From Loxodes magnus (lineage: Eukaryota; Ciliophora; Karyorelictea; Loxodida; Loxodidae), in assembly GCA_946699065.1 (NCBI GenBank), contig CAMPDV010000088.1, forward strand, positions 834,667-898,666: DNA of 64,000 nt, given 5' to 3'. A model generated the notes under the pieces. That model did not search any database and was not told where the DNA came from. It worked only from the letters and a program-made list of their open reading frames with translations. The number at the start of each line of letters is the position of its first letter. The first letter of the stretch is position 1. This document shows positions 1 through 57,839 of this stretch, piece after piece. Position numbers and translations under genes: made by a program.

Positions 1-1
1 A

Positions 2-199
2 CTAGAGTAAGAAGATAGAAAATAACTATTTAGCGTAAGATATAGAAAGAATACTATCTCAGAAATTAAGTTAACATTATATATGAATATCCAGATTGAT
101 AGGAACGAAGGAAAAATCGTTAAAAAAAGACCGATCGAAGTGGGTATACACGTAAAAAGGATTTGCAATAAAGCAATACAACCCAGATTTTATAAGTGA
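2..199 (+). CDS. C-terminal end of an unknown protein (copy A, partial)
   Basis: Sixty-five codons are open in the alternative code and end at TGA 197-199. The peptide contains NIQIDRNEGKIVKKRPIEVG and ends NKAIQPRFYK. Copy B (49909-50106) has the same frame with only synonymous or mild changes, which favours this frame over a competing open one. In copy B the frame continues left of 49908. No family is recognised. Confidence 0.4.
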
Positions 200-653
200 C
201 TATATCTATAAATAAAATTAACAATTCAAGCAGTTAATATTCTATAAGAGAGAAACTGCGAAATACGTGTCATTTTAGCAAACTATGTATAAGTGACTAT
301 ATAAATATCCATATAATATCTATAGAGATAGACTTATATCTTATCTAACTCTTATGGAATCTCATATTATGCTAATTAAATACTATTGAAAAATATTTAT
401 TGCAGCTGCTTATTTTAGCCTTTTATAATAATCCTTTAAAATATCTTTAAAAGTCAATTATTATATTATGAATTCTTTTAACTTCTAACTCAGTTTCAAA
501 ATCTGCTTTCCAAAGTTATTGTTATGCTTTGTAGTTCAGATAGAAGACTAAACTAGAAAAATAACTTTATTCTAGTAAAAATAATAGTAGGAATTTATTA
601 ATTTTGAGTTAGTTATATGGTTATAAGATAAAAATTTAGCTATTAATAGAAAA

Positions 654-1738
654 ATGTCAGGTCTATAGAAAGGATTCTTATCAAAGAATATCAAATTCGA
701 ATAAGCAGACAAAGCATAGGAGGAGAATAAGCTAACACAAATTGAGAAAACTCGTAAGCCAAAAGAAAAGAAAGCACGGGGGAATCGTAATAAATGTTAC
801 CATAAATATGTGAAGAAATTTAAACTAATTAGGAATCTTTTATGGGTAAAGCTCGAAAAATAAGTTAAAGATTAAATCCCTGGTGAGAAGGGATTTGAAG
901 ACTTAAGACTTGATCAACAAGCTTACTTAGTAAGTAAGAGAACTGAAGCTATTAACTGAAAGAGAACTTCATTTGAATGAGTTCAAATATTGAACCACGA
1001 AAGAGAAACCTTAGAGCATGTGGAATTTGACGCGGGAATAACAAGATATCACATAATGACTATAATAACAAATAGAGGACCTTATTGGGTTACAATAAGC
1101 CACAATTAAAAGTTAATTCTGATTTAATGGAACTGAAGATCCCTATTGTTTTTCCATAATTTCAATAAAATTATTACTACTTTTTTCTCAATATAGAAGT
1201 CAAAAACATCATTATCGGTAGTGCAAAATATTTCAAATGAGGTAAAGATAATATAGGTAAAAATAAGAAGCCAAAAAGTAAGCATATTTTTAAGAGTAAG
1301 AGAGATCAAGAAGAAATGAAAAGGTTAGAATACAGAGAATCTTTTGCAATAGTAATAGAAGGCTATATAAAATCAAGAGTGTAAATATATGGGAAATTTT
1401 CAAACAGCATCAGACCTTAAATGCAAAGTTGGAAGGAAAACCAATTCAAAAGACTATCTATAAGAAGAAAGGAAGTAAAAATTCGGAAATGGAATTTACT
1501 CCATAAAGTTATTCTAATATTACATATATTGTATTATAATAGAAAAATGTAAACCAAAAAAAGCTAATCAAAAGTCAAACAAAGGTCAGTTTTCATTTTT
1601 GTAAGGTTTATATAATTTCATCAATTAACTTTTGCTTTAATTAATTTAAGATTATAGAAAATATGTAGTTTGACGCTCTAGTTTGAAAGAGAGTATATAG
1701 ATGATAGCGTAATAAGAAAAATACCAAAAACCTTTTGA
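654..1738 (+). CDS. Basic unknown protein with a 26-nt intron (copy A)
   Basis: The start is the ATG at 654. Exon 1 runs 122 codons to 1019, then a GT-AG intron 1020-1045 (26 nt, phase 0) leads into another frame that continues to a TGA at 1736-1738. Removing the intron joins LNHERETLEH to ISHNDYNNKQ. The protein is Lys/Arg-rich near the N-terminus (KTRKPKEKKARGNRNK) and again in the middle (KNKKPKSKHIFKSKRDQEE). Similarity between copies A and B drops right after the TGA, which supports that stop. Copy B has an extra G near codon region 1470, so the last part of the frame is less certain. No domain recognised. A 61-codon antisense standard-code ORF (1124-1309) is an overlap artefact. Confidence 0.6.
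1020..1045 (+). other. 26-nt GT-AG intron
   Basis: The stretch begins GTGGAATTTG and ends AATAACAAG. It lies exactly between two frames that each look coding, in phase 0, and its removal makes them continuous. Confidence 0.6.
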
Positions 1739-2461
1739 TAATTGCTTTATTAAGAAGCAACAAGAAGGAGGTTATGATAGCCAAAAAAAAGAGTCAAATA
1801 GTTTTGAACACAAGTCAAGTTAAAAAGATTAAGCTAGTTTTCTAATAAGGATAGCATACTGAGTGTGATGAAAGAAGATAAAGGAATATAATATCTACTT
1901 TACTGATAATAAGAATAGGTAAATTAAAGTATGAAAATACATAATATTCTTATAGCGTAATTAGTAGCAACTCTAGTAGTAATATGTAATATCTTTACTA
2001 GAACTGAAAGAATAGATACTAAAAGAGATTAGATAAGTTAATCCTTAATTTTAACCATTTAATCAAAATTTTAATAAAGTTTATATTAATAATTCAGATA
2101 ATTAGTAATAAAGCTTATTAGAAGTATCTAAGCAACTGCTTATAACCTTTATTTAAATAAAATTCAAACTTAAGATCAATAGATTTAATTAACAATTTAA
2201 CTTGTGATTGCATGAATTGAAGAAATACAGTAGAATTCAATTAGAGCGTTACTAACTCACACTGAGTTAAGCTTAGATAAATTAAAGCTCTCAATAGTAT
2301 TTAATTAGATTGCCCATATATAATAAAGCATGTATAAAGATTCACTATCTGACGTTATAAAAGATTCCTACTAAATTATTTATTAGATTAGATAACTTCT
2401 TCTCTGATCTCTATTGCTTCTAAACAACAAAATTTTTAAACTTATAACGTTTTCACTTTAA

Positions 2462-4890
2462 ATGCTTGCAAAGAAAGCTCCTAAATATGATAGAGCTTAG
2501 TAGATTCTTAAATATAGATTCCTAATTATAATTATTGCTTATAAGCCAAAATATCTTAATGAGAAACTTGAATAGATAGAAAAGACTTAATTAGCATAAG
2601 TTATGCAAGATTCTATTAATGCTACTAAGTCAGTTTAGTAATATTCACTTATGTAAGTAACCAGTTATTTTCCATTTGCTGCTTAAGGCTATCTCCTTTC
2701 ATTACTTTTTTCAGAAAATTTACCTAAAATAAAAGTTAATTTACAAACGACTTTTTTTAGGATTTCTTGGTTAGTTTTCATAAAGTAACTACAAATTAGT
2801 TAGACTTTTAGATATGCTATAGTTATTTCCAGTTAACAGACACATCACTATTAACTTTTAATTTTTGGCGAATAAATGTTTTCTTGCTAATACTTTATCT
2901 TATCACTTGAATTAAGCTAATCTTTTGATAATAGTAAAAGTTCCAAATTTTATCTATCTCTTAGTTCCTTTAATTATTTTCTATCTAATATATAGCCTTA
3001 TTTTTTGCTTTCTTAGTGAATAGTTTAATTTAGAATCTTATTTTTTGCTAATTTATTCGATTAAAAGTATCCTTAAAATAATCAAACTATATTGATTAAT
3101 CTTTTTAAGCTATCTGGATATGGCTTCAGAAACGAAAGTATCCTTTTTCTCCATATTAATAAATTTATCCTTTTTTTGCTGGCTTGTGCTATAAATTGTT
3201 CTTATGCCTTAAGTTGCATTTATAATTAGTTTATCCATTATTTTTAGCCTTGCTTTTTTATCCATTTTCATTCTTCAAGTTTCTCAGAAGAAGATTAAAA
3301 TGATTTTCTGAAGCTGCTTTCTAGTTCCTTATGCTTTTTTTGTTCTGCAAATATACTAAATAAATCGTAAATTTTCTTTGCATAGCATATTTTTCAGAAG
3401 ATGGCTCTGAATAATCTTTATGTTGATGATTTTTTTCTAAATAACTAGAATTAAAATGCTTAGAATATTAGCAGTATATTTATTATATCTGCTTATTTTA
3501 AATCTCTTGCTTTCTATTAGCTTAAAGAAGCTACCATGCATCTTTGTTCATTAAACTTTAATTTTTTTAAATTATTTACATGAATACTACAAGGCTGCTT
3601 CTAGATTAACTGTTTATAGGAATCATCAGAGGCCGATCTTAGTCAAAGTTTAGTTAAAAGAACTAAAAGCTGTATTATTTGTTAAATACTTTGGTTTCTT
3701 AGACTTTTCTTATAAACTTGAGACTAAGGTCTTAATTTAATTCCTTTAGTTTGCTTTTGATGATATAGCTTCACTTGCATGATTCTATTGCCCTATTATT
3801 AAACTTCTATAATTGAATATTACTTAGATAGTTCAACCTTCTATTAGAAGTGAAGTTAGGAATGCAACTTTCGAATACCAGATTCTTCTATTTATTTGTG
3901 CCTTTCGTCAGATTAATTTCCGATTTAGGATACTAATTGATTAGGAAGCTAGAGATTCAGTACTATTTTCTTATACTAAGATCTCTAATTACTTTCAAGC
4001 TTTAATGTTAGAATGTAGTTTGATTTATTTCAAATTAGATGATAAGACTTTATTAGCATCTCTCTAAAAGAAGCTTCCTGCTTATTTAAATAACGGATTA
4101 TAATGTTGTTTCTTATATCTTAGACAAAACTTAAGCCTCTTTGATTCTCTTACATTTCCCAATATTTTAGTTTCAGATTGAATAACTAAGAGAGCAGGGA
4201 AGATTAGCAAGAGTCTGTTATGAACTAAGATTATGAATAGCCTTCTTAAGTTTAAATTAGTCCTAAGCTTGCATTCTCCTATATAGCTTGTAATTTAACT
4301 TTCTATCCTGTCTTTAAACTAATGTTTCCTTATTTTTAATTCCTATCCCATTATCTTCTTCAATTTCCTTCTAATAATAGGAAAGTAAATTAATAACGCC
4401 AGCAGTTGTAAATCAGAGTTTCCTTCCATTCACTTATAAAGTGTCTGAACCTTAAATCTAGGTATTTAATCTTAATAAGGGTTATTTGTACTTAGAGTAG
4501 ATTAGATATAAAAGCAGCCATTATTTTTCCACTAAGGTTCTTTATTTGTCAGCTATTTTATTTCTAGCCACTAACTCTCGTATTCTCTTACCTCTTACTA
4601 GCTATTTACTCCTTATACTGATTATGCTAACCCTATCATAATACCCCTTATTATCCTATTTTCATCTTCTATTTAAACTTTTTCAAAGACACCTTGGTAG
4701 AAGCATAACAGGAGTTATATATAAAGAAGATAATATTTAGCTTCATTATAGTAAAGATATTGAAGCTCACTTTAAAGATAGAATCTAATTTCTCCTTTAT
4801 TAAACTTTAAATTCAAATCAGTACCTTTTATAAGAAAAGCACTCTACTTTAATTAAATTAGTAGCCACTAGTTTTATATTTCAAGCCTGA
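2462..4890 (+). CDS. Multi-exon, leucine/phenylalanine-rich membrane protein (copy A)
   Basis: The start is the ATG at 2462. Exon 1 (91 codons, with NEKLEQIEKTQLAQVMQD) ends at a 26-nt intron 2735-2760. Splicing gives SENLPKIK followed by DFLVSFHKVTTNQLDF. The next stretch (to about 3560) is very rich in Leu, Ile, Phe and Tyr and looks like several membrane helices. From about 3600 to 4250 the convincing frame changes again (SEVRNATFEYQILLF, then LDDKTLLASLQKKLPAYLNN), and from 4260 to about 4770 it changes once more. Further short introns must therefore exist that I could not place. The likely stop is TGA 4888-4890, which copy B does not preserve. In copy B the intron is 24 nt, an indel tolerated inside the intron. 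Family not recognised. Confidence 0.5.
2735..2760 (+). other. 26-nt GT-AG intron with length difference between copies
   Basis: The stretch starts GTTAATTTAC and ends TTTTTTTAG. Its removal restores a coding frame in phase 0. The matching stretch in copy B (52548-52571) is 24 nt with the same ends, so a 2-nt indel that would wreck an exon is harmless here. Confidence 0.65.
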
Positions 4891-5279
4891 TTTATCTTAT
4901 AGCTATCAATATTAAATTAACCTCTGTGATGTTAAAATAAAAAGGAGCTTAATGAAATAGCTTTATTTTGAAATGCTTAATTATATTCAATTAAAATCAT
5001 TTTTAGTTAAATTATGAAATCATATTTAAAAGTTTATCTAATATCACCCTGAATTTATTATAATTGGATGCTATAGTCAAATAAATATTAATGCTACCTA
5101 AGTGTTAATATGATATCCATTAAGTCTCTTAATATAAGAATCGAGTATTATATTTATTAATAAAGTATAAGTAGTTTAATAATAAATTATCATGAAGGAA
5201 GGAATTTAATATCAAACTAGCTCAGATTATAAAGAAGGCTCTAGACTTTACTCTTTTTCAAGTCTTAAGGTTGTTCGTC

Positions 5280-5540
5280 ATGTGTTTCAGCAGTATTGGT
5301 ACTGCTATTTCGATCTCTAATTTTAATAGCCAACTACTCACTTTTTGTCCTTTATTCATTATCATCGTCCTCATACCAAGATTTCAACTAAGTCCAAGGT
5401 GTTAATTGGTTTCAATACCAGACCAGATGCTAAAAAAATGACTCTAGTGATATTTACTTGCATGGAAAGTAAATTATTTGAATTTATTACAGTTTCAACT
5501 GGCCAACACAGAGAAAGCTACTCCCATTTCTAAAGTTCTT
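5280..5540 (+). pseudogene. 5' fragment of the gene at 55092-56663
   Basis: Homologous to the first 80 or so codons of the palindrome-arm gene in copy B. The shared peptide reads SFIHYHRPHTKISTKSKVL here and SFIHYHHTKNSTKSKVL there. Homology stops near 5540, so only the 5' end is present, with indels relative to copy B. No function known. Confidence 0.5.
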
Positions 5541-5659
5541 TAAATTGAAAACGATTTAGATTTTATGAAACTAAACCAAGATATAGTATGTTAGACGTCT
5601 ACTGCCTTAACTACAATTGCCACTATTTTTAAGGAAATCAAGTTCTAAATAGTTGTTAT

Positions 5660-6205
5660 GCAAGGAGAAATTGTCGAATCCTTTTTATACTTTTCTTGTA
5701 GAGCAACTATATTATTACTAGCAACATCTCTCTAGTTCCTTTAACTATTTTACTCGAAAGAATAAAATATTCAGTTTATTTCTGAAATCAATCATTTTCC
5801 CTTTATCCAGCTCATAGTCTAATTCCCTAAATAAAATCATGATTGCCTCTATTGACCTATTTTTCTTGTAACTCTTCAAAATGTTCAAGCTTAAGTATTA
5901 TCTTAAAATGACTTCAATCAGCTTTCAAATTCTTATCAATATTTTTAATTTTATTCAAGTCATCTTTTACATTTTTGTCTTGTCGATTGCTTCTTAAGCT
6001 TTTTCTCTTTATACAACTCAAAAAAATCTTTTTATTTAGCAGCTGAACGTGAGTTAAGTTCTGGATTTCTTTTTTAGTACTACCATTTCTTTTTATCTCC
6101 TACTTAAGTAACTTCATCTGATTTTCAATCAGATACAAATATATCTACTACCTTCCAAACTGTTAACTTCCCATTAAACTTGATAATACTTCTCTTACCT
6201 TCCAT
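5660..6205 (-). CDS. Small unknown protein, divergent to the methyltransferase (copy A)
   Basis: The ATG is at 6205-6203 on the minus strand. The N-terminus reads MEGKRSIKFNGKLTVWKVVD, followed by a conserved NPELNSRSAAKQKDFFELYK. After about codon 85 the coding frame shifts; the later conserved block includes FRELDYELDKGKMIDFRNK. Copy B (62276 to about 61730) preserves the same peptide blocks while surrounding bases differ, which is good evidence for protein-level conservation. A short intron probably lies in the middle but was not placed. It is head-to-head with the methyltransferase at 6658, about 450 bp away. No family recognised. Confidence 0.5.
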
Positions 6206-7920
6206 TTACATCTTACTTTAGTTTGGGATTCTTTAATAGAAACGAAATAGATCAAATAAATAGGTTTAAACAGTCTTCTATTCTTCATTCTACTAGATTA
6301 AAGCTTAAAATGATTAGCTAATAAATAAGCGTAAATTAGATGATCAATGATTAGTCTAAATAAGAAACAGATAACTAAGTGCTATTTTACTTATTTATAC
6401 GGTAATTAAACTAATGAAAATCACTCTCTTATACAATTAGAAATTACACTATTAGAGTCATTTTCTAAATAAGATACAATCATTCTATGTTCAAATGTGA
6501 GATATCCAAGTAACTAAATGTTATACTTCCAGTTTATAATAAAGAAAGTTTATAGCTATGAGTAGTTTCACTTCGAATAAGAGTAAACTGAAAGTCTAGT
6601 TGAAATAGGATTGTTTAAAAAGAGCTTTTAAGATTAATATTTTAGAAGGAAGATAAAATGAAAACTTCAAGCTTATACTTACTAGCAGCGTCTGCTTTAA
6701 TTGCTTTCTTACTAGTTGCCTTTTTGATATCATAAGCAAAAGTGTAATAGAATAGTATTAATGTTAACTTCATTTAGACAATGAAAACTGAAGTAAAGCA
6801 AGAAGAATAAGAAATGAGAGATTATATCTTGAGCAAGAATTGTTTAACTAGTGTTTAAGATATTAATTATTAACCCTAAATTCACAAAACCTATGGACTA
6901 GCATTAAAAATATACAAGCATATCAAGAATAATACCTTTAACCCCTCCAAATTTCCTATTAAAGGCATAGAATACCCTTCAGAAATTAAGGGGTTTATCT
7001 AGCTTTTACCAAAGCTGAAACTGGTATGTGAAACGAAATTAGATGAGATAGATATTGTGTCTATGAACCATCTACTACCTTGGCTCTTTCAGTACTCATT
7101 AAGCCTTACTTTAAAATAATAGATTGTGGAAGTCATTTAGGATTTCATTCTTTCCGTATGGCTGCTTTACTTAATGAAGAGAAAGGAGGAATATAATATA
7201 CTTTTGAACCAAATCCCTTGAGTTTTCAGTTCTTAAATGCCTCTATCATTATTAATAATTTTGATAAGAAGATGAAGTTATATAACTATGCCATATCCAA
7301 TCAAACTTAAGAAATGGATTTTAATCTATACCAAAGAGGGTATTAGAGCTCCTTGGATTCCTTAAATATGAAAAGGATAAGCAGCAAAATTAAATAAAAG
7401 TCTGATAACGAAGAGAAGACGCAAGTTAAAATCCTTACTATAAGCCTAGATGATTTTTTTCCAGCTCATGTACTTCCAGAAGTTCATTTGATTAAAATGG
7501 ATATAGAAAATGCAGAACTCCTTGCAGTATAAGGAGCTTAAAAGTTAATAAAAAGATCGTAGAATGTAATTATAATAATGGAATGGTGATTCTAAATATA
7601 TAAGATACTAGGAGAAAAGTTTGTGAATTAACAAATTTCGTGACTTTAAAACGAAAATTTTCACTTTTGGTCCTTGAATGATACTATTGCATTGAAATAG
7701 CATAACTGTCATTAACTAAAAAATTATTGGGGCTACTAAAACTTAACAATGGCTAATTTTGAAAAAGTAGATGCTAACTGGTTAAAAAGATATAATTACA
7801 AAAGCCCTTCAGGTGCTCATGCTGATATCTTGATAATGAGAGAGCACACATATAAAAGCTACTTTCCATAAAATTGAACTAGTTAACTTAATACTACTTC
7901 TTTAATTAAAAAAATAAATT
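5675..7920 (+). repeat. Long direct repeat, copy A, right segment
   Basis: Matches about 61770-64000 in the same orientation. The part covering the methyltransferase gene (6658-7880) is almost identical between copies, while 5675-6600 is noticeably more diverged. In copy A only about 135 bp separate this segment from the left one; in copy B about 6.4 kb separate them. The right boundary lies beyond the window in copy B. Confidence 0.93.
6658..7877 (+). pseudogene. FkbM-family methyltransferase (copy A, one-base frame break)
   Basis: About 99% identical to 62736-63956, with the same start (6658) and stop position (TGA 7875-7877). One A is missing in a short A-run near 6960, which takes the N-terminal 100 residues out of frame with the catalytic core. 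It is therefore either a very recent pseudogene or an assembly error in a homopolymer. The anchor helix and the FkbM core motifs (DCGSHLGFHSF, EPNPLSF, LIKMDIENAEL) are all present. Confidence 0.7.
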
Positions 7921-8300
7921 CCTCTTTTTAAGAGTCTTGATTGTATAAAGCATCATAGATAAGTCGTAAAATAAAAAGGTTAGTATACTGGAACAAAATG
8001 ATATAGATAAGATTTTTATATTTACAATCTTAGTAAAGAGCTATAAGGAAATGCTAAACTATTACCTAAATAAATGAAGTTTCTTTATTAATATTTCACA
8101 AATAGAGTCTTCAATCTTTTTATAACTGCCAGATCTGTAATATTTCTTATCGTTAGAATTTGAACTAAAGTATGCTTATTCTATAATAAAATGCTTTAAT
8201 TATATAATTTTAAAATATTATAGCATAATTTCAAATATTATAATGTAGACTTCTAAGCTTTAGTGGATGGAACATTACATGAAACTTAAGCAGTGAATCG
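7900..8300. other. AT-rich spacer
   Basis: I see no gene or repeat in this stretch apart from low-complexity A/T. Confidence 0.4.
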
Positions 8301-16610: not shown

Positions 16611-19600
16611 TCAGAGTTTTTTCTCAAATTAATTTCCTACTTGAGGAGCTTATATTGCTACCTCATTTTACTTTTTACAGTAGAAGCAAAAAAATTCACC
16701 ATTTTCGAAGACCTGCATCTGACTTTAACATTTGTTACATGTAAAATCTTGCCATTATTGATTTCTTTTTTGTTTTATCAAATTTAAATCTTATAAATCT
16801 GCATATTCTTCTAATATTCTAAAATTATCATTATCTTAAATAAGTTTATTCCTTTCTAAATTTTATTTGCATGCAGTATTTGGACATTTCATCTCAAATA
16901 TTTAAAATTTCTCTTATAATACTAAATTATTAATTTATTTTTTTAAACATTGCTTACAAATTTAGCAACCACAACTCATATGGGCTAAGTTTTCTGCTAC
17001 AGTCTAAATTTAATTGCAAACTATACAGTTAAATTACTAATTTACAACCATTTAGATCATTTACTAGTCTTCTTTGATTTGTATTTTGTTTTAAATGTTT
17101 TAATTTAAATTCCTTTTAGCTTAATTATTATCAGGGCCTTCTTAAAAAGAAGATTATTTAGATGGCTATTCGATTTAAAGCTTTCTATCTAACTTGTTCT
17201 ATTCAACTTAACTTTCTTTTATTGCATTTTTTCTTTATTAGTTTTATTAGTTTCTCTAAAGCTATTATCTTAATAAATTAGAACTTTACTCAATCAACTT
17301 TTATTATTATTCCTTTATAGCAGATAGTTCTTGTAAAAACTATTTAATATTAGGTCTCTCTTTGTAATTAAAAGAAAAGCAACTCTTTAATAAATTGTTC
17401 AGTGCTTAGTTTTCCGTTATTACTTCTGAAAATTAAGGTATCATTTTTTATTTCAAAATTGCGTTTCTAATATTTTCTAAATTTCACTATTAAGGCCATA
17501 AAAAAGATTCATTTAATATCTCTACAGCTATACAAGCTAGTGACCAAATATCGCTTTATTTATAGAATGAAAACTGAAATTATTCAGGCGCCATTCAGTA
17601 AACTGTTCCTCTTCCCGTCTCCGTAAAATTTATGGAATCATTTCTTGATAATCCTAAGTCTGCTATTTTAGGAAGATCGTTTTCATTTAGCAAAATATTT
17701 TATGACTTTAAATCTCTATGAATCATATTAGAGTTATGTATAGCACTCACTCCTTCTGCTATTTAATAAATCAACTTTAACTACTTCATAAGCTTTATTT
17801 AGTTATCTTTAATTTCAGGGAAAAGCTATCTATTTTGGATTAAATAATATAGATTTCCTTTATTTTGATAATTGGTAATAGTGCATAAGCAAAAGTCTTC
17901 TTCATTACTGGTATCTAGAGTAACTCCTAAAAGTCTTAGTACTCTTTAGTCATTTATACTTAATAATGATTCGCATTCTTTATAAAAATCATTAATCAGT
18001 TCTTGCTAACTTATTCCTCTTCTTTGTGTCATCATTTTTATAGCATAACTGAGATTATTTATTTCTATTTTATAAACTGTAGCTTAACCTCCTCTTCCTA
18101 AGATTTTAAGTTTATTTAGAGCTCTATTATCAGGAATAAGTTCATTAAATTGTCAAATTCTTACTTAAGAAGTTGGCAAAGTCCCAGCTCCATTTCTTTC
18201 AAGTAATTTCATAACATCACTTAGAGTATATTTTTTATTTTGAGTGCTTCTTTTTTGATTTATAGGAGTAAAATTGATTTATCTATTTTACTAATCTTCT
18301 ATCTGTTTGTTTTATTAAAGTTAGTTTACTTAATTAATTTCTTTCTCTTTTTATTCAAATTAATCTTGATTATTGTTTTATATCCTTTTTATTTCTTTTA
18401 ATTCTAGTTGTTGTTCTTATATTTCTGGCTTTTGATTTTATTAATTTTTTTGTCAATCGAATAATTATTTTTATAGATCTTCAATTAGTTTTTTTTATTC
18501 GTCATTACATTCGGTTAAAGAATTAATTTTTTAGTTCTGAACTTCTATTTATTTTTGTTTACTATTGCTTTACTAACTTTTATTTTACAAATTTTAACTT
18601 AATTCATTAATTTATCTTCCTAAGCTTTAAATTTCTACTTTTTTTATTTTTAGATGTTGATTTAAAGATTAAACTTAGTTTTAAAGAATAGCTTTATCTT
18701 TTTTAAGTTTTTCTATAGTATCTAATTGATTCTAAATAATGTTGTTATCTTCGATTATTTTATTTTACATTTTTAGCTCAAGTTCTTTATAACTCAGATT
18801 CTTAGATTATACTTAATCTTATAATTCTTCAATTAAAGTTTTGCTTTACTGCTAATCCTTTTAAATCTATTATATTAATTCTTAACTTGCTTATAACTTA
18901 TTTTCAAGCATTTTAATCTTTTATTATTATTCTATATAATCTTTCTATTTTACTTCAAAATTGATATGTAGTTAATCAAACCTAGATTATGAATTTTATA
19001 ATTATTGCTAATAAAATATAACTTCTTTATTTATCTGGAAATTTCATTCATTTAATTTATTCATTTCTTAGTCTTTTAGTTAAATTTATTCAGAGTAAAT
19101 TAACAATTTTTGCTATGCTATTTATATTTCATTTTTCTTCTCTTCTAACTAATCGTTTAATTATTATGCTATTTTTTATTGCTTTTTATAACTTTTTTCC
19201 ATTTTAGTTTTCCAAGATTCATCAATCTTTTTTTATATCTAATCATTTGAAGATAATTAGAATGTTTAATAATTTTAGGTTTACAATTAGTTTATTGCTT
19301 AAGCTTCTTTTTCTCCTTAACTAGTTAAATTTATTTCTTCAGATATCGGATTTCTACTAGACGTTATCTATAAATATTCTCAATCATTTTCAGAACCAAT
19401 TTATAAGAATTATTTTAGCAATTGCAAAAACTTTTCTTTTTATTGTTCCAACTTTTGCATCATCATTTCGCATGAAATTTCAGCTTCCTTTATTTCATCA
19501 TATTTATTATCTTTTACTATTTCTTGCTAGGATTAACTTAAAACATTTCTCTTTTTTGTATTTTGTTATTGCTATCAAATTTATTAATAAAAAAATTCCA

Positions 19601-19991
19601 TATTCTGAACAAGGATTAGTAAAGGTTAGTTGAGTCTATGAAATAAGCTTTTTTCTACTATTTTAACTATTTTTTTTAAAATTTCTTACTTTCAGCTTGA
19701 TATTTGATTTATTATACCTTGTAAATTTAAATTATCTAACCTTTAACTGTTCTTTTGATTATTTAAGATAGTCTCTTTATTGCTTTACTTTTTTATGTTT
19801 TAACTAACTAAAATTTTCATTCATTTCTTATTAAACTCTTTGCTTTCTTAAGTTCCTTCACAAAAAGGACATTTTTAATTATTTTAAGTTTGAGGTATTT
19901 AATCAAAGCATTGATTGCACACTTTATGCTTACAATTTCAAAATAAATTTGCTTCTTGCTAGCAAATATTACAAAGATCGATGTCCTACAT
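16611..19991 (-). CDS. RING - coiled coil - protein kinase - C-terminal zinc-finger protein
   Basis: A single frame of 1127 codons runs from ATG 19991 to TGA 16611-16613. The length is an exact multiple of three and no intron is needed. Residues about 6-45 are a C3HC4-type RING (CNICQQEANLFWNCKHKVC, then KCPFC). Residues 60-620 are Gln/Asn/Lys/Glu-rich and look coiled-coil. A kinase follows: GRGGQATVYK (about 632), AIKMM, HRDLKSQN (about 758), KIADLGLSR, and GTVYWMAPEQ (about 799), where the W is TGA. All catalytic residues are present; DLG replaces DFG. After a charged linker, residues about 989-1110 hold a second Cys-rich array (CIVCNQ, HMSCGCQICKQCL, KCPNTACKQ, FTCNKC, FFCFYC) resembling a RING plus IBR-like finger. 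This predicts a kinase coupled to ubiquitin ligase activity. The arrangement is unusual, and the role is inferred from domains only. Confidence 0.85.
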
Positions 19992-35688: not shown

Positions 35689-37426
35689 ATGGTTTCGACT
35701 GTTGATTAGGATTATATTATCTAAGCCTAAAAAATTTAAAAGGTAGAGGAGATAGCGAAAGGTGGATTTGGTGTGGTTTATAAAGGTTTATTGCAAGACT
35801 GTACTGTGGTAGCGATCAAAGAATTATATAACTAAACTTTATCTGCAGAGACTAAGTAAGATATGGAATAAGAAATAGCGATTTAGTAAAAAATGCATCA
35901 TCCAAACATAGTCTCTTTGTATGGATATTGTCAGTAGTCATTATGTTTGGTGATGGAGTATTTACCATAAAATTTATATTAGCTCATACATTAAAAACAG
36001 CAAGTACCTTGGGAAATTCGATATAAAATAAGTTTAGAAATTGCCGTAGGACTTGAGTATATACACGGCAAAAACATCATTCATAGAGATCTCAAGAGTA
36101 ATAACATCTTATTAGATGATAAGTTAAGAGCTAAGATTACTGATTTCGGATTATCGAGAGTGAAGACTGAATCCAAAACGATGGAATCTTTGAAATAAGT
36201 TGGTAATTTTCGTTGGATGGCTCCTGAGCTCATGTGTATAAGACCCAAGTACAGTAAATAATCTGATATATTTGCTTTGGGTGTAATTTTTTGGGAAATA
36301 GCCGCAAGAAAAATCTCATTTTAGGAGTCTGAGGACTTTTATATTGAGAGAGGTGTAAGTTAGGGTGAGAGGAAGGAGGTGCCTGAGGATTGTCCTGTAG
36401 AATATGCAAAAATCATTCAAGGATGTTGGCTATAAAACCCAGCACAAAGAATGAGTTTAGAAATTATGCAAAACATTCTTAAGAGCATGTCATAGCATTA
36501 AAATTTAAAGATTTAATAAAAAAAAGAAGAAGTAAAGATAACCACTAAACCCATAATTTTATCTCAAGTAGGAAACCTAAAGATTTAATAAAAAGAAGAA
36601 ATTAAGATAGCTACTGAACCCATTATGCATTATCAACCAAATTACGATTAAAGACAATATAATTCTTTAATATTTTAGATAAGTGATGGCGAATCATTAG
36701 AATTGAGTTAACTCTGAAGTTTTAGCAAGGGACATGAACTGAATTGTCTCCGGGAGTTCCGATAAAACGATAAAGATGTGAGATTTCCAAGGTGGAAGCT
36801 GTACAAGAACTTTGACTGGTCATTCGAATTCAGTTAATTCGCTAGCTTTAACAAGTGATCAGAAGTGACTTGTCTCCGGAAGTGACGATAACAAAATAAA
36901 GATGTGGGATTTCTAGACTGGTAGCTGTACTAGAATTTTGACGGGTCATTCGGATTACGTTTATTCGGTAGCTTTAACAAGTGACATGAAAGGAATTGTC
37001 TCTGGAAGTCGAGATAACGCTATAAAGATGTGGGATTTCCAGACTGGAAGTTGTACGAAAACTTTGACGGGCCATTCTAATTCAGTTAGATCGGCAACTT
37101 TAACAAGCGACATGAAATGAATTGTCTCTGGAAGTTCCGATAAAACGATAAAGATCTGGTCTTTCTCATCTGGTCAGCTTATTCGAACCCTGGAAGGTCA
37201 TACAGGTGGTTTATACAGTGTTTAGATTAGTACTGATTCGAATTTTATCTTTTCTGGATCATGGGATAAAACGATTAAAATATGAAACTTTAATACGGGT
37301 GAGTGCATATAGACTCTTTAAGGGCATACAGGAGGAATAATTTCTCTAGCATTGAGTGGTGATAATACATGGTTGGTATCTGGAGCTGCAGACTACACTT
37401 TGAGAAGGTGGAAAGTTGCAAATTGA
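35689..37426 (+). CDS. Protein kinase fused to WD40 repeats (572 aa, one 19-nt intron)
   Basis: The start is ATG 35689. The kinase (residues about 18-270) has [60 protein letters not shown] and [14 protein letters not shown], all intact and TKL-like. A Gln/Lys linker leads to a 19-nt intron 36707-36725; removing it joins DGESLEL to TRDMNWIVSGSS. Six WD40 blades follow, each like [19 protein letters not shown], ending RRWKVAN and TGA 37424-37426. TGA occupies the W of KW and IW in several blades, while other blades use TGG, direct proof of TGA as Trp. The repeats likely recruit the substrate or scaffold. The truncated copy at 25.0-25.4 kb and the WD40 gene at 40.4-43.0 kb are relatives. Confidence 0.9.
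36707..36725 (+). other. 19-nt intron
   Basis: GTTAACTCTGAAGTTTTAG. Its removal restores the frame between the kinase linker and the first WD40 blade, and the joined peptide (LTRDMNWIVSGS) matches the later blades (LTSDMKWIVSGS). Confidence 0.75.
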
Positions 37427-45000: not shown

Positions 45001-47240
45001 AGTATATATATCAGATAATATATGAAAATGATGGACAAAAACATTTATCCTTTAAATCTAAATTCTAAACTATGGAAAGAAAGTTGAATTTCCCTCAATA
45101 ACCCCAAAACTATTTTATTAAATAATAAGCATTATGTTTATAAATTAAGACTGCTATTTTATTTAAATTGCCTTCTTTTTTAATCATGTTACTAGATAAA
45201 AAATAGTTAAAGGAACTAATATATTTCTTTGATTATTTAAGCGCTATTTTAGGGTTTAATAGTTTAGTTTAAAATTATGATAGTCATTTATATAGACATT
45301 TTTACTAAAAAGGATAATGAGGTAGAAAATATTTTAAGATTAGATTTGATTCAAAAATGATGTGCTAAATTCTTCATTTTAGGTGTTTATGCTATTGAGA
45401 AAAAGAATGGTTAGATTTTAATTTAACTAGAATGTAATTTCAAGCAATTAAAAAATTTAAACTATATAAAAGGAAAAAATTTTAATGAAACATAAGAATA
45501 ATCTATTTCTTCAAAGTCCAAAGACATGGGAAAAAATTATTGACATTTATTTAATTCTAATGAATAGAAAATCCTACACTAAAGTTGCATTTTATATCTA
45601 TTTTTTACTAAGAAAAGAATATTAAGACATAGTATTAAAAGTGCTTTCAGTATTTAAACTTAGAAATTTAAAAATTTTCACTAAAAATTTTCTTATTTAT
45701 TAAACCGAATTAAAGTCATTTACTTGATTAAAATGAAATGTAATATTACTTAATTAAAATAGAATTTAATAGAAAGAAAAGAACGAGTAATAAAAAGATT
45801 TGGATTAGCTAACATTCACCCATAAAATATTGCGTTAGTAACGACTTGATATCTAAAAGGACAATTAGATTCTGTAGATAAATTCAGAGAGATAAAGATT
45901 AACCATTCCAGTTAGCATTGTAATGTACTAAATTTATAAAAAGTTTGATAATTTTAGAAAATTAAATAATTTAATAACACTCAAAATTTCTAAATGTACA
46001 AATAATTATGCTAACAATAATTCATTTTTCCATTCTTATATCTTTTTACTAAAAAAACTATTATAAATCTCTTCTGTCCTCACTTTTAAATTTTCACTTT
46101 TAAAATTTTTCCCAGCATTCCTAATTTTTTGTCTTTTTTAATTTTCTTTGCACTCTTTCTAATTTTCAATCCACATTTTCAATTATTCTATTTTTTAATC
46201 TCTTTTAAAGCAAAATGTTAATCATTAAATATTATTTAGTTTAAACGCTTTTTATTAATTACTTTCTTATATATATTATTTTAATTACTTTCTCATTATC
46301 TTTACTTACTCTCCTTTCCCTTTTTTATATTTTTTATAGACTTATTCATATAATAAATTTTATTTTATTGATTTAAATAAACTTTTTATTTTTTTTAATA
46401 AAATTTTTTAAATTATCTTCTTCTTCTTCCAATTTTTTTCTATTTCCTACTTTTTTAAATTTTTAGAATTAAAATTCTTTTTAATTAATTTTTATTGTTT
46501 TACCATTAATTTCCTTTTTTTTTTATTTTTTCTTTTATCAATTTTCTAAACTTTTTCATTCATCTACCTTTTGAATTTTCTTTACTTTTAAATTATTTTC
46601 TAAATTTTAAACATTTTGTTTTCTGTTTTTTATTTTCTACAATAAATAACCATTTTATTTAATATCTTTTATTTTTTAATAATTTTAAATTAGTAAATTT
46701 ATGTCTTAAATATAATTTTAATATTTATAGTATTTAAATTTTAAATTTTTTAAGTTTTCAAAAGTATTATGTTCTTCTTCACTCTCACTCAATCACTTTA
46801 TTATTAAATTATTCTTACAACCTAAATTTATAAAATTACCCCTTTTTTTGAACTCATACATTCTTTTTTAAAACTTATGTTACCTCCTATTTAATATTTT
46901 TAAACCCATTACGAACTAATTCCTATAGCCACTCCTTACATACTGATATAAAATCTTATACACTCTTTTTAGCTTTAAATGCAAATTACTTTCATCTAAT
47001 TTTATCCTTTAAATTTGATATTACTGACTTAATTTACTTAAATTTAATTTACTTTCTTCATGTTTGCATCAAATGTCAACTTACAATCTTCATTTTCACA
47101 TTAAATTGCAACTTACGAACTATATTTATACATTAAATATAAACTTACCTATATTTAGAAAATTATTTTATTTTCATTAGTCTTACTTCCTGCAATAATA
47201 CTTATTAATTACCGTCTTTTTTATCATTTTATTTAAATTT
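45000..47240. other. T-rich low-complexity stretch
   Basis: No defensible gene. From 46060 to 46900 the sequence is almost pure T/C/A, and at 47060-47160 three loosely repeated AACTTAC-containing units occur about 40 bp apart. Confidence 0.4.
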
Positions 47241-47249
47241 TAACTTACT

Positions 47250-48271
47250 TCATTTCATCTATAGCATCTCTCTATTAACCACTTGATAGTATGATATAGT
47301 ATAGTTGTCCTCTAACTTATTTTAATTCTTTAAAATATCCAAGGTTCATGCTTATAATTTAGTTAGCTCTTAGATATTGTCCTTTATCTACCTGATCGTT
47401 GTATCTTGTGTTACTGATATTTTTACTGTATTTTTATTTGGAGACACTATGATGATTTAGAAGTTTTGATTTTTGAACTAGATTTAAGATTAGATTGATT
47501 ACAACTACTATTATAGCTCCTAATTTCTTATTGTTTATGTATTTATCTAACCTTATAACTGGAATTTCTCCTGTTGTAAAGATTAGATTTGATTATTCTA
47601 TTAATGAATCTAATTCAAATAGTTAATGTTATCTTAATTCACTGCATTTAGATTGAGTTTAACATTGGATAGCTCCTCAAATATTTTAGAAGATAACTTA
47701 GCGTTCTATTAAATGGCACTTTTCACATCTACCAACGCCTTTTATACTTACTCTTCCAACTACGTATTAGTTAGGTTTTATTACTTCTACTATTAAGTAA
47801 GTTCCTACTCATCAGTTTAGGTTATTTATTTCTTGAGATACTTCAACTTAAGTTTAATTATCTTTGACAAATCGTTCATCTCTCTTTATAATGCTAAATT
47901 GTCTTTGAAAAATAAAGCGTTGATATGCTAAATTAACTACTTTATAAAACTTGCACAGTATTCCAGCAACTAGTTTTAAACTGATCTAACTTTACTCTAT
48001 TGATTCTCCAAAAAGGCTATGCTATCTAATATTTCTTTTTTTTTTAATTCCTTTTTTAGTTTTTCATCTTACTATAAAAGAAAAGGTTTTATCTAATGTA
48101 CTTATTTGCATACTTGATAAGCACATTTTAAGTTTTTTTTTACTAAAATTATTAATTTGCACACATTATGCAAATATTATGTCTACAAGGTAGAATCATT
48201 GGAACTATCATCTAACTATCGAAATCTCGATAGCAACTTAGACATTTCAAAACTTCTGACATTTTATCCAT
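47250..48271 (-). CDS. RING - coiled coil - ubiquitin-like protein
   Basis: The start is ATG 48271 (MDKMSEVLKCLSCYRDFDSQ). A RING follows: CLSC, then LPCRHNICIMC and, in a shifted frame, LKCAYQVC. A long Gln-rich coiled coil comes next (QDEKLKKELKKKEILDSIAF; SSKIFEELSNVKLNLNAVNQ). The C-terminus has a beta-grasp, ubiquitin-like pattern: IIIVSPNKNTVKISVTQD, TTIRQIKDNIQEL, ILKNQNKLEDNYTISYYQ, then VVNREMLQMK and TGA 47250-47252. One frame change lies near 48150 beside a 9-base A-run; it is either an unplaced intron or a homopolymer error. RING plus Ubl suggests an E3 ligase engaged with the ubiquitin system (inferred). Confidence 0.7.
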
Positions 48272-48479
48272 TATTGCTTCTTAAAAAATAATAACCCTAA
48301 AGTTATTAGTCCATCATAATATAAAAATATTAGATCTAACGGAGTTAATCAAAATAAGGGTAAGTATTATATTAACTTAAACTATTTTAATTATTATTAA
48401 TATTAAATAAACCATTAAATCAGACTACTTAAAAGATAGCTTTAGTATTAATATAGCAAGTAATATCAACTAATATCTA

Positions 48480-49879: not shown

Positions 49880-50106
49880 AATAAATACTATTACGGAAAA
49901 CGCTTGGACTAGAGTAAGAAGATAGAAAATAACTATTTAGCGTAAGATATAGAAAGAATACTATCTCAGAAATTAAGTTGACATTATATATGAATATCCA
50001 GATTGATAGGAACGAAGGAAAAATCATTAAAAAAAGACCGACCGAAGTGGGTATACACGTAAAAAGGATTTGCAATAAAGCAATACAACCCAGATTTTAT
50101 AAGTGA
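49880..50106 (+). CDS. C-terminal end of an unknown protein (copy B)
   Basis: Second copy of the partial gene at 2-199, ending at TGA 50104-50106. The frame can be followed some way upstream of the point where copy A is cut, but the start is not identifiable. Differences from copy A are few (V to I, I to T and a synonymous Leu change). Function unknown. Confidence 0.35.
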
Positions 50107-50560
50107 CTATATCTATAAATAAAATTAACAATTCAAGCAGTTAATATTCTATAAGAGAGAAACTGCGAAATACGTGTCATTTTAGCAAACTATGTATAAG
50201 TGACTATATAAATATGCATACAATATCTATAGAGATAGACTTATATCTTATCTAACCCTTATGGAATCTCATATTATGCTAATTAAATACTATTGAAAAA
50301 TATTTATTGCAGCTGCTTATCTTAGCCTTTTATAATAATCCTTTAAAGTATCTTTAAAAGTCAATTATTATATTATGAATTCTTTTAACTTCTAACTCAG
50401 TTTCAAAATTTGCTTTCCAAAGTTATTGTTATGCTTTGTAGTTCAGATAGAAGACTAAACTAGAAAAATAACTTTATTCTAGTAAAAATAATAGTAGGAA
50501 TTTATTAATTTTGAGTTAGTTATATGGTTATAAGATAAAAATTTAGCTATTAATAGAAAA

Positions 50561-51650
50561 ATGTCAGGTCTATAGAAAGGATTCTTATCAAAGAATATCA
50601 AATTCGAATAAACAGACAAAGCATAGGAGGAGAATAAGCTAACACAAATTGAGAAAACTCGTAAGCCAAAAGAAAAGAAAGCACGGGGGAATCGTAATAA
50701 ATGTTACCATAAATATGTGAAGAAATTTAAACTACTTAGGAATCTTTTATGGGTAAAGCTCGAAAAATAAGTTAAAGATTAAATCCCTGGTGAGAAGGGA
50801 TTTGAAGACTTAAGACTTGATCATCAAGCTTACTTAGTAAGTAAGAGAACTGAAGTTATCAACTGAAAGAGAACTTCATTTGAATGAGTTCAAATATTGA
50901 ACCACGAAAGAGAAGCCTTAGAGCATGTGGAATTTGACGCAGGAATAACAAGATATCACATAATGACTATAATAACAAATAGAGGATCTTATTGGGTTAC
51001 AATAAGCCACAATTAAAAGTTAATTCTGATTTAATGGAACTGAAGATCCCTATTGTTTTTCCATAATTTCAATAAAATTATTACTACTTTTTTCTCAATA
51101 TAGAAGTCAAAAACATCATTATCGGTAGTGCAAAATATTTCAAATGAGGTAAAGATAATATAGGTAAAAATAAGAAGCCAAAAAGTAAGCATATTTTTAA
51201 GAGTAAGAGAGATCAAGAAGAAATGAAAAGGTTAGAATACAGAGAATCTTTTGCAATAGTAATAGAAGGCTATATAAAATCAAGAGTGTAAATATATGGG
51301 AAATTTTCAAACAGCATCAGACCTTAAATGCAAAGTTGGAAGGAAAACCAATTCAAAAGACTATCTATAAGAAGAAAGGAAGTAAAAATTCGGGAAATGG
51401 AATTTACTCCATAAAGTTATTCTAATATTACATATATTGTATTATAATAGAAAAATGTAAACCAAAAAAAGCTAATCAAAAGTCAAACAAAGGCCAGTTT
51501 TCATTTTTGTAAGTTTTATATAATTTCATCAATTAACTTTTGCTTTAATTAATTTAAGATTATAGAAAATATGTAGTTTGACGCTCTAGTTTGAAAGAGA
51601 GTATATAGATGATAGCGTAATAAGAAAAATACCAAAAACCTTTTGATAAT
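50561..51650 (+). CDS. Basic unknown protein (copy B)
   Basis: Near-identical second copy of the gene at 654-1738, with the same start context and the same short intron. A one-base insertion relative to copy A lies in the C-terminal third. Either copy B is broken there, or the downstream frame of copy B is the correct one, since it also reads sensibly. Function unknown. Confidence 0.5.
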
Positions 51651-52276
51651 TGCTTGAATAAGAATTAACTAGAAGGAGCGTATGATAGCCAAATAAAGAA
51701 AAAGAGGCAAATAGTTTTGAACACAAGACAAGCTAAAAAGATTAAAATAGTTTCCTAATAAGGATATCATACTGGGTGTGATGAAAGTAGATAAAGGAAT
51801 AAAATATCTACTAGATTGGAATGAGAATAGGTAAATTTTAGTATCAAAATACATAATATGCTTTTAGTGTAATTAATAGTAACTCTAGTAGTAATATGTA
51901 ATATCTTTACTAGATTTGAAATAAATAATTATTAAAAGAGATTAGATAAATTAATCCTTATCCTTTACTTTAATAAAATTCAAACTTAAGATCAAGAGAT
52001 TTAATTAACAATTTAACTTGTGATTGCATGATGGAAGAAATACAGTAGCATTCAATTAGAGCGTTACTAACTCACACTGAGTTAAGCTTAGATAAATTAA
52101 AGCTCTCAATAGTATTTAATTAGATTGTCCATATATAATAAAGCATATATAAAGATTCACTATCTGACGTTATAAAAGGTTCCTACTAAATTACTTATTA
52201 GATTAGATAACTTCTTCTCTGATCTCTATTGTTTCTAAACAACAAAATTTTTAAACTTATAACCTTTTCACTTTAA

Positions 52277-54700
52277 ATGCTTGCAAGAAAGCTCCTAAAT
52301 ATGATAGAATTTAGTAGATTCTAAATATAGATTCCTAATTATAATTATTGTTTATAAGCCAAAATATCTTAATGAGAAACTTGAATAGATAGAAAAGACT
52401 TAATTAGCATAAGCTATGCAAGATTCTATTAGTGCTACTAAGTCAGTCTAGTAATATTTACTTATGTAAGCAACCAGCTATTTTCCATTTGCTGCTTAAG
52501 GCTATCTCCTTTCATAACTTTTTTCAGAAAATTTGCCTAAAATAAAAGTATTTACAAAGGACTTTTTTTAGGATTTCTTGGTTAGTTTTCATAAAGTAAC
52601 TACAAATTAGTTAGACTTTTAGATATGATATAGTTATTTCCAGTTAACAGACACATCACTATTAACTTTTAATTTTTGGCGAATAAATGTTTTCTTGCTA
52701 ATACTTTATCTTATCACTTGAATTAAGCTAATCTTTTGATAATAGTAAAAGTTCCAAATTTTATCTATCTCTTAGTTCCTTTAATTATTTTCTATCTAAT
52801 ATATAGCCTTATTTTTTGCTTTCTTAGTGAATAGTTTAATTTAGAATCTTATTTTTTGCTAATTTATTCGATTAAAAGTATCCTTAAAATAATCAAACTA
52901 TATTGATTAATCTTTTTAAGTTATCTGGATATGGCTTCAGAAACGAAAGTATCCTTTTTCTCCATATTAATAAATTTATCCTTTTTTTGCTGGCTTGTGC
53001 TATAAATTGTTCTTATGCCTTAAGTTGCATTTATAATTAGTTTATCCATTATTTTTAGACTTGCTTTTTTATCCATTTTCATTCTTCAATTTTCTCATAA
53101 GAAGATTAAAATGATTTTCTGAAGTTGCTTTCTAGTTCCTTATGCTTTTTTGTTCTGCAAATATTACTAAATAAATCGTAAATTTTCTTTGCATAGCATA
53201 TTTTTCAGAAGATGGCTCTGAATAATCTTTATATTGATGATTTTTTTCTAAATGACTAGAATTAAAATGCTTAGAATATTAGCAGTATATTTATTATATC
53301 TGCTTATTTTAAATATCTTGCTTTCTATTAGCTTAAAGAAGCTACCATGCATCTTTGTTCATTAAGCTTTAATTTTTTTAAATTATTTACATGAATACTA
53401 CAAGGCTGCTTCTAGATTAACTGTTTATAGGAATCATCAGAGGCCGATCTTAGTCAGAGTTTAGTTAAAAGAACTAAAAGCTGTATTATTTGTTAAATAC
53501 TTTGGTTTCTTAGACTTTTCTTATAAACTTGAGACTAAGGTCTTAATTTAATTCCTTTAGTTTGCTTTTGATGATATAGCTTCACTAGCATGATTCTATT
53601 GCCCTATTACTAAACTTCTATAATTGAATATTACTTAGATAGTTCAACCTTCTATTAGAAGTGAAGTTAGGAATGCAACTTTCGAATACCAGATTCTTCT
53701 ATTTATTTGTGCATTTCGTCAGATTAATTTCCGATTTAGGATACTAATTGATTAGGAAGCTAGAGATTCAGTACTATTTTCTTATACTAAGATCTCTAAT
53801 TACTTTCAAGCTTTAATGGTAGAATGTAGTTTGATTTATTTCAAATTAGATGAAAATACTTTATTAGCATCTCTCTAAAAGAAGCTTCCTGCTTATTTAA
53901 ATAACGGATTATAATGTTGTTTCTTATATCTTAGACAAACTTAAGCCTCTTTGATTCTCTTACATTTCCCAATAATTTAGTTCAGATTGAATAACTAAGA
54001 GAGCAGGGAAGATTAGCAAGAGTCTGTTATGAACTAAGATTATGAATAGCCTTCTTAAATTTAAATTGATCCTTAGCTTGCATTCTCCTATATAGCTTGT
54101 AATTTAACTTTCTATCCTGTCTTTAAACTAAAGTTTCCTTATTTTTTAATTCCTATCCCATTATCTTCTTCAATTTCCTTCTAATAATAGGAAAGTAAAT
54201 TAATAACGCCAGCTTCTGTAAATCAGAGTTTCCTTTCATTCACTTATAAAGTGTCTAAACCTAAAATCTAGATATTTAATCTTAATAAGGGATATTTGTA
54301 CTTAGATTAGATAAAAAGCAGCCATTATTTTCCCATTAAGATTCTTTATTTATTAGGTATTTTCTCTCTAGCTACTAACTCATGTATTCTCTTACCTCTT
54401 GCTAACTATTTACTTCTTATACTGATTACTCTAGCTCTAACATAATACATATTATTATCCTATTTTCATCTTCTATTTCCAACCTTTCCAAAGACTCCTT
54501 GAGAGTTATATATGCGGAAGTAAAGTTTATTTAGAGTGATTAAAGAAGATAATGTTAAGCTTCATTATAATAAAGATATTATAGCTCTAATTTCTACTTA
54601 ATTAAGCTTTTAGTTAAAATAAGCGCTTTTTATAAGATAAACAGTCTACTTTAATTAAATTAGCTACTATTAGCTTTTATATTTAAAGCCTGCTTTATCT
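52277..54700 (+). pseudogene. Membrane protein gene, copy B, frame-damaged
   Basis: Colinear with 2462-4890 at high identity. Single-base deletions relative to copy A fall in exon 1 (two within the first 20 codons) and near 53930-53980, so the frame is not maintained unless these are assembly errors in short homopolymers. The first intron (52548-52571) is 24 nt against 26 nt in copy A. The C-terminal part past 54300 has diverged and contains a deletion. Confidence 0.5.
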
Positions 54701-54851
54701 TATAACTATTAAGATTAAATTAACCTCTATGAAGTTAAAATTAAAATAGCTTAATGAAATAGTATTATATGAAATGCTTTAATTTCATTAATTATATTCA
54801 ATTAAAATCATTTTAGTCTAACTTACTAAATCAAGTTTAAAAGAATAATCC

Positions 54852-56424: not shown

Positions 56425-56663
56425 GCAATTATTGCTCATTTATAGTTCCTTTATAATTTGATGCGACGATGCTTATTTCTTTGCATTATATGATGATATA
56501 GTATGGTGCATTGAGTATTTTGCACATAATATTCGTGTTATTACCTCAAGTACTTTTCTACTAGAAATTAAGATATGTAAAAAGACCAGGAAAAGGAGGA
56601 ATAATCACTGAAACTTGGAAAAGACCAGAAGAAGATGGTTAGTTAGTGTAAGGTAACTAATGA
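55092..56663 (+). CDS. Unknown 506-aa protein with two short introns, spanning the left palindrome arm
   Basis: ATG 55092 (MYFSNIATAISTYNYQLPTT) to TGA 56661-56663. Two GT-AG introns, 55469-55490 (22 nt) and 56014-56042 (29 nt), make one frame of 507 codons; they join LVTLRGYY to WRNISAIFLTGY and LLTVPQ to VLNEIDLFIDLL. Readable blocks include LQRIMKVMINILEKMPQGSL, VRQKIQQAILKLDYEELING and KNKTFLQEQDQLYSKISTLV. A Cys/Arg-rich patch (REACNNIQRKCLNSRRCEGG) lies mid-protein. The gene crosses the inner arm border, so its end is in the unique centre. No family recognised. A 5' fragment is in copy A and a deleted inverted copy in the right arm. Confidence 0.5.
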
Positions 56664-56970
56664 GAATGACACTGAATATGACTTTGATGGACAGATATGT
56701 GTTTATAAACTCGTTTTTTCTTATTAACTTGGGATATCTCCAATCAATAAAGCAAATCATGAATAATTTTGGATTTGCATTGTGTTGAAAAATTTTCATG
56801 GTATAGGAACCAAAACACCCAAAGACACAATAAACCCAGAAGTGTGTACTTGCACCAAGAAAGTATCTTTACAACGAGTAGAATCTGATGCCAAGATGCA
56901 GAAAATGAAGTAGAAAGGAATAAAAAGACAGATAACTAAGTATATATAATTTCATGTCCCTTTATTATGA
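56575..56970 (+). CDS. Small unknown protein (131 aa) in the palindrome centre
   Basis: From ATG 56575 to TGA 56968-56970 there is no internal TGA, which is notable here. The sequence reads TNENDTEYDFDGQICVYKLV, then NFHGIGTKTPKDTINPEVCT and CTKKVSLQRVESDAKMQKMK. It overlaps the end of the preceding gene in another frame by about 90 bp, so it could be that gene's last exon reached by splicing. Its 3' end overlaps the convergent gene at 56952-57770 by about 20 bp. Function unknown. Confidence 0.45.
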
Positions 56971-57770: not shown

Positions 57771-57839
57771 CGTTCCATCAACGTATGAGAAGTGAAAAAA
57801 CACATATCAAGGTTTACTAAATTAAAGAAATTTATTTTG

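Follow-up and report, generated by a model that had tools for sequence, protein, structure and literature searches.

We describe here a gene of the karyorelict ciliate Loxodes magnus whose single reading frame carries an N-terminal RING (N-RING), a long coiled coil, a TKL-like protein kinase and a C-terminal cysteine-rich block (C-block) corresponding to the RING1-IBR part of an RBR ubiquitin ligase. The window, by which we mean the whole 64,000 nucleotides of DNA that were analysed (G000:C88:834667-898666), belongs to a genome of which 705,730,643 bases were searched, the macronuclear assembly being given as 706 Mbp (PMC11441545). The modules, their order, their conservation across a family of paralogs and the absence of a RING2/Rcat domain are facts at the level of the sequence. 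The features of the gene are as follows.

16611..19991, minus strand: whole gene (G000:C88:851277-854657), 1126 codons plus a TGA stop under the table 27 code, based on the full-length paralog L010 and in-frame indels
19860..19973, minus strand: N-terminal C3HC4 RING, residues 7-44 (C7 C10 C20 H22 C25 C28 C41 C44), from Pfam and profile
18282..19454, minus strand: coiled-coil region, about residues 180-570, from periodicity; Q 22%, E+K 24%, 5 Pro+Gly in 391 residues
17331..18116, minus strand: TKL-like protein kinase, residues 626-887, Pfam Pkinase E 5.2e-41; G-loop 632, K652, E672, HRD 758-760, DLG 778, APE 801
17040..17330, minus strand: Q-rich linker, residues 888-984; omega 0.40 against L010 (residues 891-984), no heptad signal
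16869..17027, minus strand: RBR-type RING1, residues 989-1041, C-x2-C-x14-C-x-C-x2-C-x2-C-x20-C-x4-C, with Cys for the usual His
16677..16739, minus strand: reduced IBR-like zinc ribbon, residues 1085-1105, C-x2-C-x13-C-x2-C
16611..16613, minus strand: TGA stop, 21 codons past the last finger Cys; the stops of L010 and L011 lie at the matching place

The frame is open solely under the karyorelict code (NCBI table 27), because its 1126 codons include 143 TAA or TAG and 10 internal TGA codons, and the gene is readable only with TAA and TAG as Gln and TGA as Trp. Karyorelicts are described as using table 27, with UGA serving as stop or Trp, and 3'-UTRs in this genome are given a mean length of 53 bp (PMC11441545). 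Translations with tables 11 and 6, and those of the plus strand, were rejected for many stops, or for stops at positions that fit Trp. Since TGA alone closes frames in table 27, and occurs 5 to 43 times per frame of the stretch when all six frames are counted, a long open frame is weak evidence when taken by itself. The preliminary description of this DNA, which had reported an exact 1127-codon frame and omitted the (minus) strand, was correct as to the coding frame (1126 codons plus TGA), but the length that it pointed to is weak proof of a gene.

That the gene is real and not a chance frame follows instead from comparison with its paralogs. L010 aligns end to end with the window protein (residues 1-1126, 60.7% identity), all five of the indels between the two genes are multiples of three, and Trp is kept as Trp in L010 at nine of 14 codons, with TGA/TGG exchanges at codons 204 and 832; a second paralog, L011, aligns over residues 7-1126 with 47% identity. 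Purifying selection supports the same conclusion. With omega calculated by the Nei-Gojobori method in our own script, the values against L010 are 0.53 for the N-RING (a segment of 48 codons), 0.49 for the coil, 0.19 for the kinase, 0.40 for the linker and 0.28 for the C-block, and those against L011 are 0.65, 0.62, 0.20, 0.43 and 0.29 respectively. The RING and coil of the window gene evolve rapidly, and its 20-codon tail, with omega of 1.84 against L010 and 0.89 against L011, is free of constraint. In 80-codon windows along the gene pN/pS is between 0.15 and 0.8, and it stands at 1.07 in the last six codons.

Domains of the predicted protein

The N-terminal RING has the eight zinc ligands, in C3HC4 spacing, of a canonical RING E3. 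Pfam applied to the single sequence gave E 0.012, below cut-off, and a profile built from nine paralogs matched RNF4 at E 3.8e-12 and TRIM32 at 7.2e-10 among the best 60 of 254 matches. The nine rows were all chosen by pattern search, so the invariance of the ligands among them is by construction, and rows of the L017 type, in which Leu or Tyr replaces the His, are not in the alignment. All eight ligands are conserved in L010, a paralog found by full-length homology, and the BLAST alignment also spans the RING for L010, L011, L012 (as L042) and L019. The coil is recognized by a hydrophobic period of 3.45-3.6 over residues 180-570 that exceeds 500 of 500 shuffles, with no coil periodicity above shuffles at residues 60-250, both in the window gene, which is the only one examined in this way. 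A C3HC4 RING, whose profile matches RNF4 and TRIM chains, followed by a coil is shared with RING E3s of the TRIM/RNF4 type, although Pfam finds no B-box in the window protein, which also contains a kinase and half of an RBR module.

The kinase contains its Lys, Glu, HRD, DFG-type and APE residues, and the preliminary description, which had named a C3HC4 RING, a long coiled coil and a complete kinase, is borne out for these three modules by the ligands C7-C44 and the RNF4 match, by the heptad periodicity, and by the full catalytic set and Pfam score respectively. DLG replaces DFG in the window kinase, as it does in most of the 25 family kinases (of 29 distinct ones, the window included) in which the set of K, E, HRD, D(L/F/M)G and APE is intact; 13 near-duplicates were dropped and are not among the 29 that were tabulated and placed on the tree. 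The closest PDB chains are EGFR, IRAK4, FGFR2, Lyn and CTR1, and the label 'TKL-like' reflects these and the Pfam neighbours together with the motif HRDLKSxN, which we take to be TKL-associated. The kinases of L012/L042, L019, L069 (C341) and L070 (C110) are without the HRD and DFG-type residues, and are likely to be pseudokinases to judge from these motifs.

Twelve Cys of the C-block are invariant in seven of seven aligned blocks and make up 12 of the 13 invariant columns, and all eight Cys of RING1 are present in nine of ten blocks; identity between the window block and those of other clades is 21-33%. The truncated, degenerate or frame-shifted blocks of L013, L018 and L041 were left out of the seven- and nine-block alignments, and those of L060, L063, L069, L070 and L071 are not in the nine-relative alignment. 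Pfam found nothing above cut-off in the window block alone (Zn_ribbon_6 at E 0.011). With the seven-block profile the best five of 14 PDB matches are RBR proteins (HOIP at 1.7e-5, 7.4e-4 and 9.4e-4, RNF144A at 8.7e-5 and 1.4e-4), and the nine-relative profile, from which the window clade is excluded, matches some 145 residues of HOIP at E 1.3e-11, a stretch which we take to be RING1-IBR. The best six of the 27 matches of this profile are RNF31 or RNF144A entries, and there are weaker matches to unrelated zinc domains (EEA1 at 0.0076, rabphilin at 0.0098); one Cys-preserving shuffle of its columns gave five matches, no RING or RBR among them, the best at 0.085. The window clade alone matches HOIP at E 0.004, the best of 16 matches, and its match to the profile of the wider family has a probability of 99.6%. 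A homology chain also leads from the window block to that of L031 (E 1.3e-10) and from there to L058 (E 1.2e-11), which continues into an Rcat-like finger.

The description of this block as 'RING/IBR-like' was thus right, the nine-relative profile supporting the C-terminal finger even though Pfam alone stays below cut-off, and it can be sharpened to an RBR-type RING1-IBR (C989-C1041 and C1085-C1105). RING1 aligns in the profile with those of HOIP and RNF144A, and the RING1-IBR of HOIP/RNF31 and RNF144A, homologous to the C-block, shares with it the Cys-for-His replacement in the C-x-C of RING1. The alignment of the relatives with HOIP extends through the IBR, and their profile also matches the RNF31 fragment 2ct7 at E 0.0011. 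The window gene has a reduced, IBR-like version, a single C-x2-C...C-x2-C ribbon; a further C-x2-C, kept in L031, L040, L062, L065, L066 and L072, is absent from the window block. The elements that define an RBR ligase are RING1, IBR and RING2, the last of which holds the active Cys (PMC3305615). The window protein differs from HOIP and RNF144A in having a fused kinase and neither RING2/Rcat nor its catalytic Cys, there being no Cys at all in the 21 codons between the last finger Cys and the stop. Because RING2/Rcat is missing, the C-block is an RBR-derived half module (half-RBR) and not an RBR ligase, and a complete second ligase at the C-terminus is ruled out. The earlier picture, in which finger regions of ubiquitin-ligase type stand on both sides of the kinase, holds in that both fingers lie in one frame with the kinase, but the second of them is an incomplete ligase.

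Related loci and their module combinations

A genome search for relatives of the window gene gave at least 42 matches, 30 of which were taken as loci L009-L038, with L009 the window gene itself. The order RING, coil region, kinase and C-block is present in one frame at a minimum of seven of the 30 loci, representing five distinct genes (L009, L010, L011, L014 with its copy L015, and L029 with its copy L030), and this is a lower bound because the reading of modules was confined to the stretches that had been fetched. Within those stretches L012, L016, L019 and L032 have no C-block in the frame of the kinase. Seven loci with kinase and C-block (L031, L062, L063, L065, L066, L070 and L072) showed no N-RING in the stretch fetched after extension upstream, and the N-RING is therefore not obligatory. 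Fifteen further C-block loci were read for about 1.6 kb upstream and six have a kinase there; nine of the 15, together with L031, were extended by 2.2-2.5 kb, which revealed a kinase match far upstream and in the same frame in C261 (partial) and C341, both putative single genes. In the kinase tree, whose midpoint root is for drawing only and whose module labels are ours, C-blocks are found on both sides of the root and N-RINGs in separate groups, and from this spread it looks as though the combination of kinase and half-RBR is older than the addition of the N-RING, or else the N-RING has been lost repeatedly.

Five loci (L058, L059, L064, L067 and L068) run on into an Rcat-like finger, as read by eye, and no kinase match was seen in roughly 1.6 kb upstream of them; Pfam IBR is above cut-off in L058 and L059, the two that were scanned. 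The P0001 kinase likewise had no match in 15 IBR loci with short flanks (15 of 129 matches). Other combinations include L078 with L061 (G000:C22:447200-451800), where a RING, a Q-rich stretch and a RING1-IBR with a CFAM end follow one another and a kinase match is absent between them. At L082 with L069 (G000:C341:210200-214600) one frame, a putative gene, begins with a pseudokinase and continues through two stretches that resemble ubiquitin (Pfam ubiquitin E 2.3e-17) and Q-rich repeats to RING1-IBR; if it is indeed a single gene, it recalls the parts of PINK1 and Parkin in one chain.

The paralogs L010 (G000:C390:49322-52708) and L011 (about 64952-68400) form a mosaic. Their kinases are 98.6% identical and their kinase, linker and C-block regions 92-99% identical, whereas the RING-coil front halves share 30%, as if variable fronts had been swapped or the kinase homogenised by gene conversion.

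Many of the sister proteins have a distinctive end. A Cys lies exactly at position -4 before the first post-finger TGA in half of the distinct Rcat-less blocks (10 of 20, the window included). Counted by locus this is 13 of the 22 that were fetched, three copies among them, and the background over all frames of the fetched loci is 166 in 9294. The ends read CLLM, CFIM, CLIM (twice), CIVM, CQVM, CLIF, CFAM, CAIM and CLVF, which we take to be a CAAX-like signal, and they are not ten independent events because the blocks are related. In the CAAX-bearing members the stop is 17-29 codons after the anchor, and in one place of the genome two protein prenyltransferase alpha repeats score over cut-off. 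The window gene ends in FEKKL and has no CAAX box, nor have L010 and L011, and a prenyl anchor on the window gene itself is ruled out.

Proposed working and alternatives

The order of the modules suggests a single molecule running both phosphorylation and ubiquitin tagging. We favor, with slightly better than even confidence, a model in which one protein made of RING, coil, TKL-like kinase and Rcat-less RING1-IBR is a self-regulating kinase/E3 that uses its half-RBR as an E2-docking module. In such a model the coil would dimerise the protein, the RNF4/TRIM-like RING would be expected to activate an E2 and perform ubiquitin transfer, and the RING1-IBR would dock E2~ubiquitin with no onward thioester transfer. 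The kinase would phosphorylate its own protein and bound clients and so switch or time ubiquitination, the outcome of which might be the protein's own turnover or degradation of clients, with a role for the kinase as in plant KEG. The CAAX-ended sisters would act at membranes, and a cytosolic location would be expected for the window clade, which lacks the box. For the predicted docking function there is a possible precedent in HHARI, where RING1 binds E2 and yet a RING1-IBR construct is reported to bring no gain in E2 reactivity (PMC3305615).

The best functional precedent for the protein as a whole is KEG (KEEP ON GOING) of Arabidopsis, which likewise has a RING and a kinase in one chain, the likeness being one of common domains; to our knowledge KEG has no RBR module. 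MEKK1/MAP3K1 also joins a kinase to a finger, but the finger is of a different type, and we know of only the single finger region, and of no half-RBR, in that protein. The kinase activity of KEG is reported to affect its ubiquitination and stability, and KEG is described as carrying ankyrin and HERC2-like repeats (PMC5385374); the PHD-type finger of MEKK1/MAP3K1 is described as having E3 activity toward ERK (PMC5666861). RING-kinase chains and the RBR RING1-IBR are thus already known separately, and what appears to be new is the kinase between both. The arrangement was unfamiliar at first sight, and likewise no kinase between a RING and a RING1-IBR was found in the open-licence full-text literature, nor was a kinase with Rcat-less RING1-IBR and CAAX. 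If the self-regulating kinase/E3 model is true, the protein is a natural case in which one chain couples phosphorylation to ubiquitination and has a half-RBR for E2 docking, and would offer a clean test of how RING1-IBR acts without Rcat, because a half-RBR cannot catalyse alone. The family also shows a karyorelict ciliate recombining kinase, RING, RBR, ubiquitin-like and possible prenyl-anchor modules.

The strongest alternative, which we regard as possible though appreciably less probable, is that the C-block is a degenerate RBR remnant serving as an interaction or structural zinc domain, in which case the kinase works and any E3 activity belongs to the N-RING only. Such decay is consistent with the absence of Rcat from the kinase-linked blocks that were read, the loss of part of the IBR ligands in the window clade, the lack of a block in the kinase frame of L012, L016, L019 and L032, and the truncated, degenerate or frame-shifted blocks of L013, L018 and L041, but it sits poorly with eight RING1 Cys intact in nine of ten blocks, the window block being only 21-33% identical to those of other clades, and with the omega of 0.28. 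A broader and rather doubtful proposal is a lineage-specific kinase-ubiquitin relay family, in which a half-RBR was captured behind a TKL-like kinase and is often prenyl-anchored, so that a split RBR, controlled by the kinase of its own chain, would present E2~ubiquitin to the N-RING, or to an Rcat in trans. Less probable again is a split RBR as such, whose RING1-IBR would dock E2~ubiquitin and pass the ubiquitin in trans to the Rcat or N-terminal RING of a partner chain; the presence in the same genome of an Rcat-less RING1-IBR family beside genes with Rcat-like fingers is in its favor. It is very improbable that the locus consists of two adjacent genes (RING-coil and kinase-C-block) with an internal TGA such as codon 513 or 613 as a true stop, as the in-frame TGA at both positions in a code with no dedicated stop and the recombining of modules in L010 and L011 (rear parts 92-99%, fronts 30%) might allow, since codon 513 is TTT in L010 (613 is TGA in both), the junction is without out-of-frame indels and has pN/pS of 0.53 (481-560) and 0.31 (561-640), and the one-frame order is kept in five distinct genes. 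Base composition is non-discriminating between one gene and two, since G+C over the greater part of the coil half is 17-25%, hardly more than the 13-21% of the flanks.

Other features of the window

Rfam and tRNA scans of the window gave no matches. A second RING/coil-like gene is situated at 46500-48317 (minus strand), with a RING piece in another frame at 47876-48271 (zf-RING_5 of Pfam at E 5.4e-5) and a Q-rich stretch, after which comes a weak match to ubiquitin-like domains (E 0.0019), both scores being below cut-off; the frame change may reflect a short intron. Another kinase gene lies at 35689-36717 (plus strand; PK_Tyr_Ser-Thr E 5e-57). Positions 1-7921 and 49908-64000 are related by a large direct duplication in pieces with 92-97% identity, and 54851-56094 and 59350-60597 form an inverted pair with 97.7% identity.
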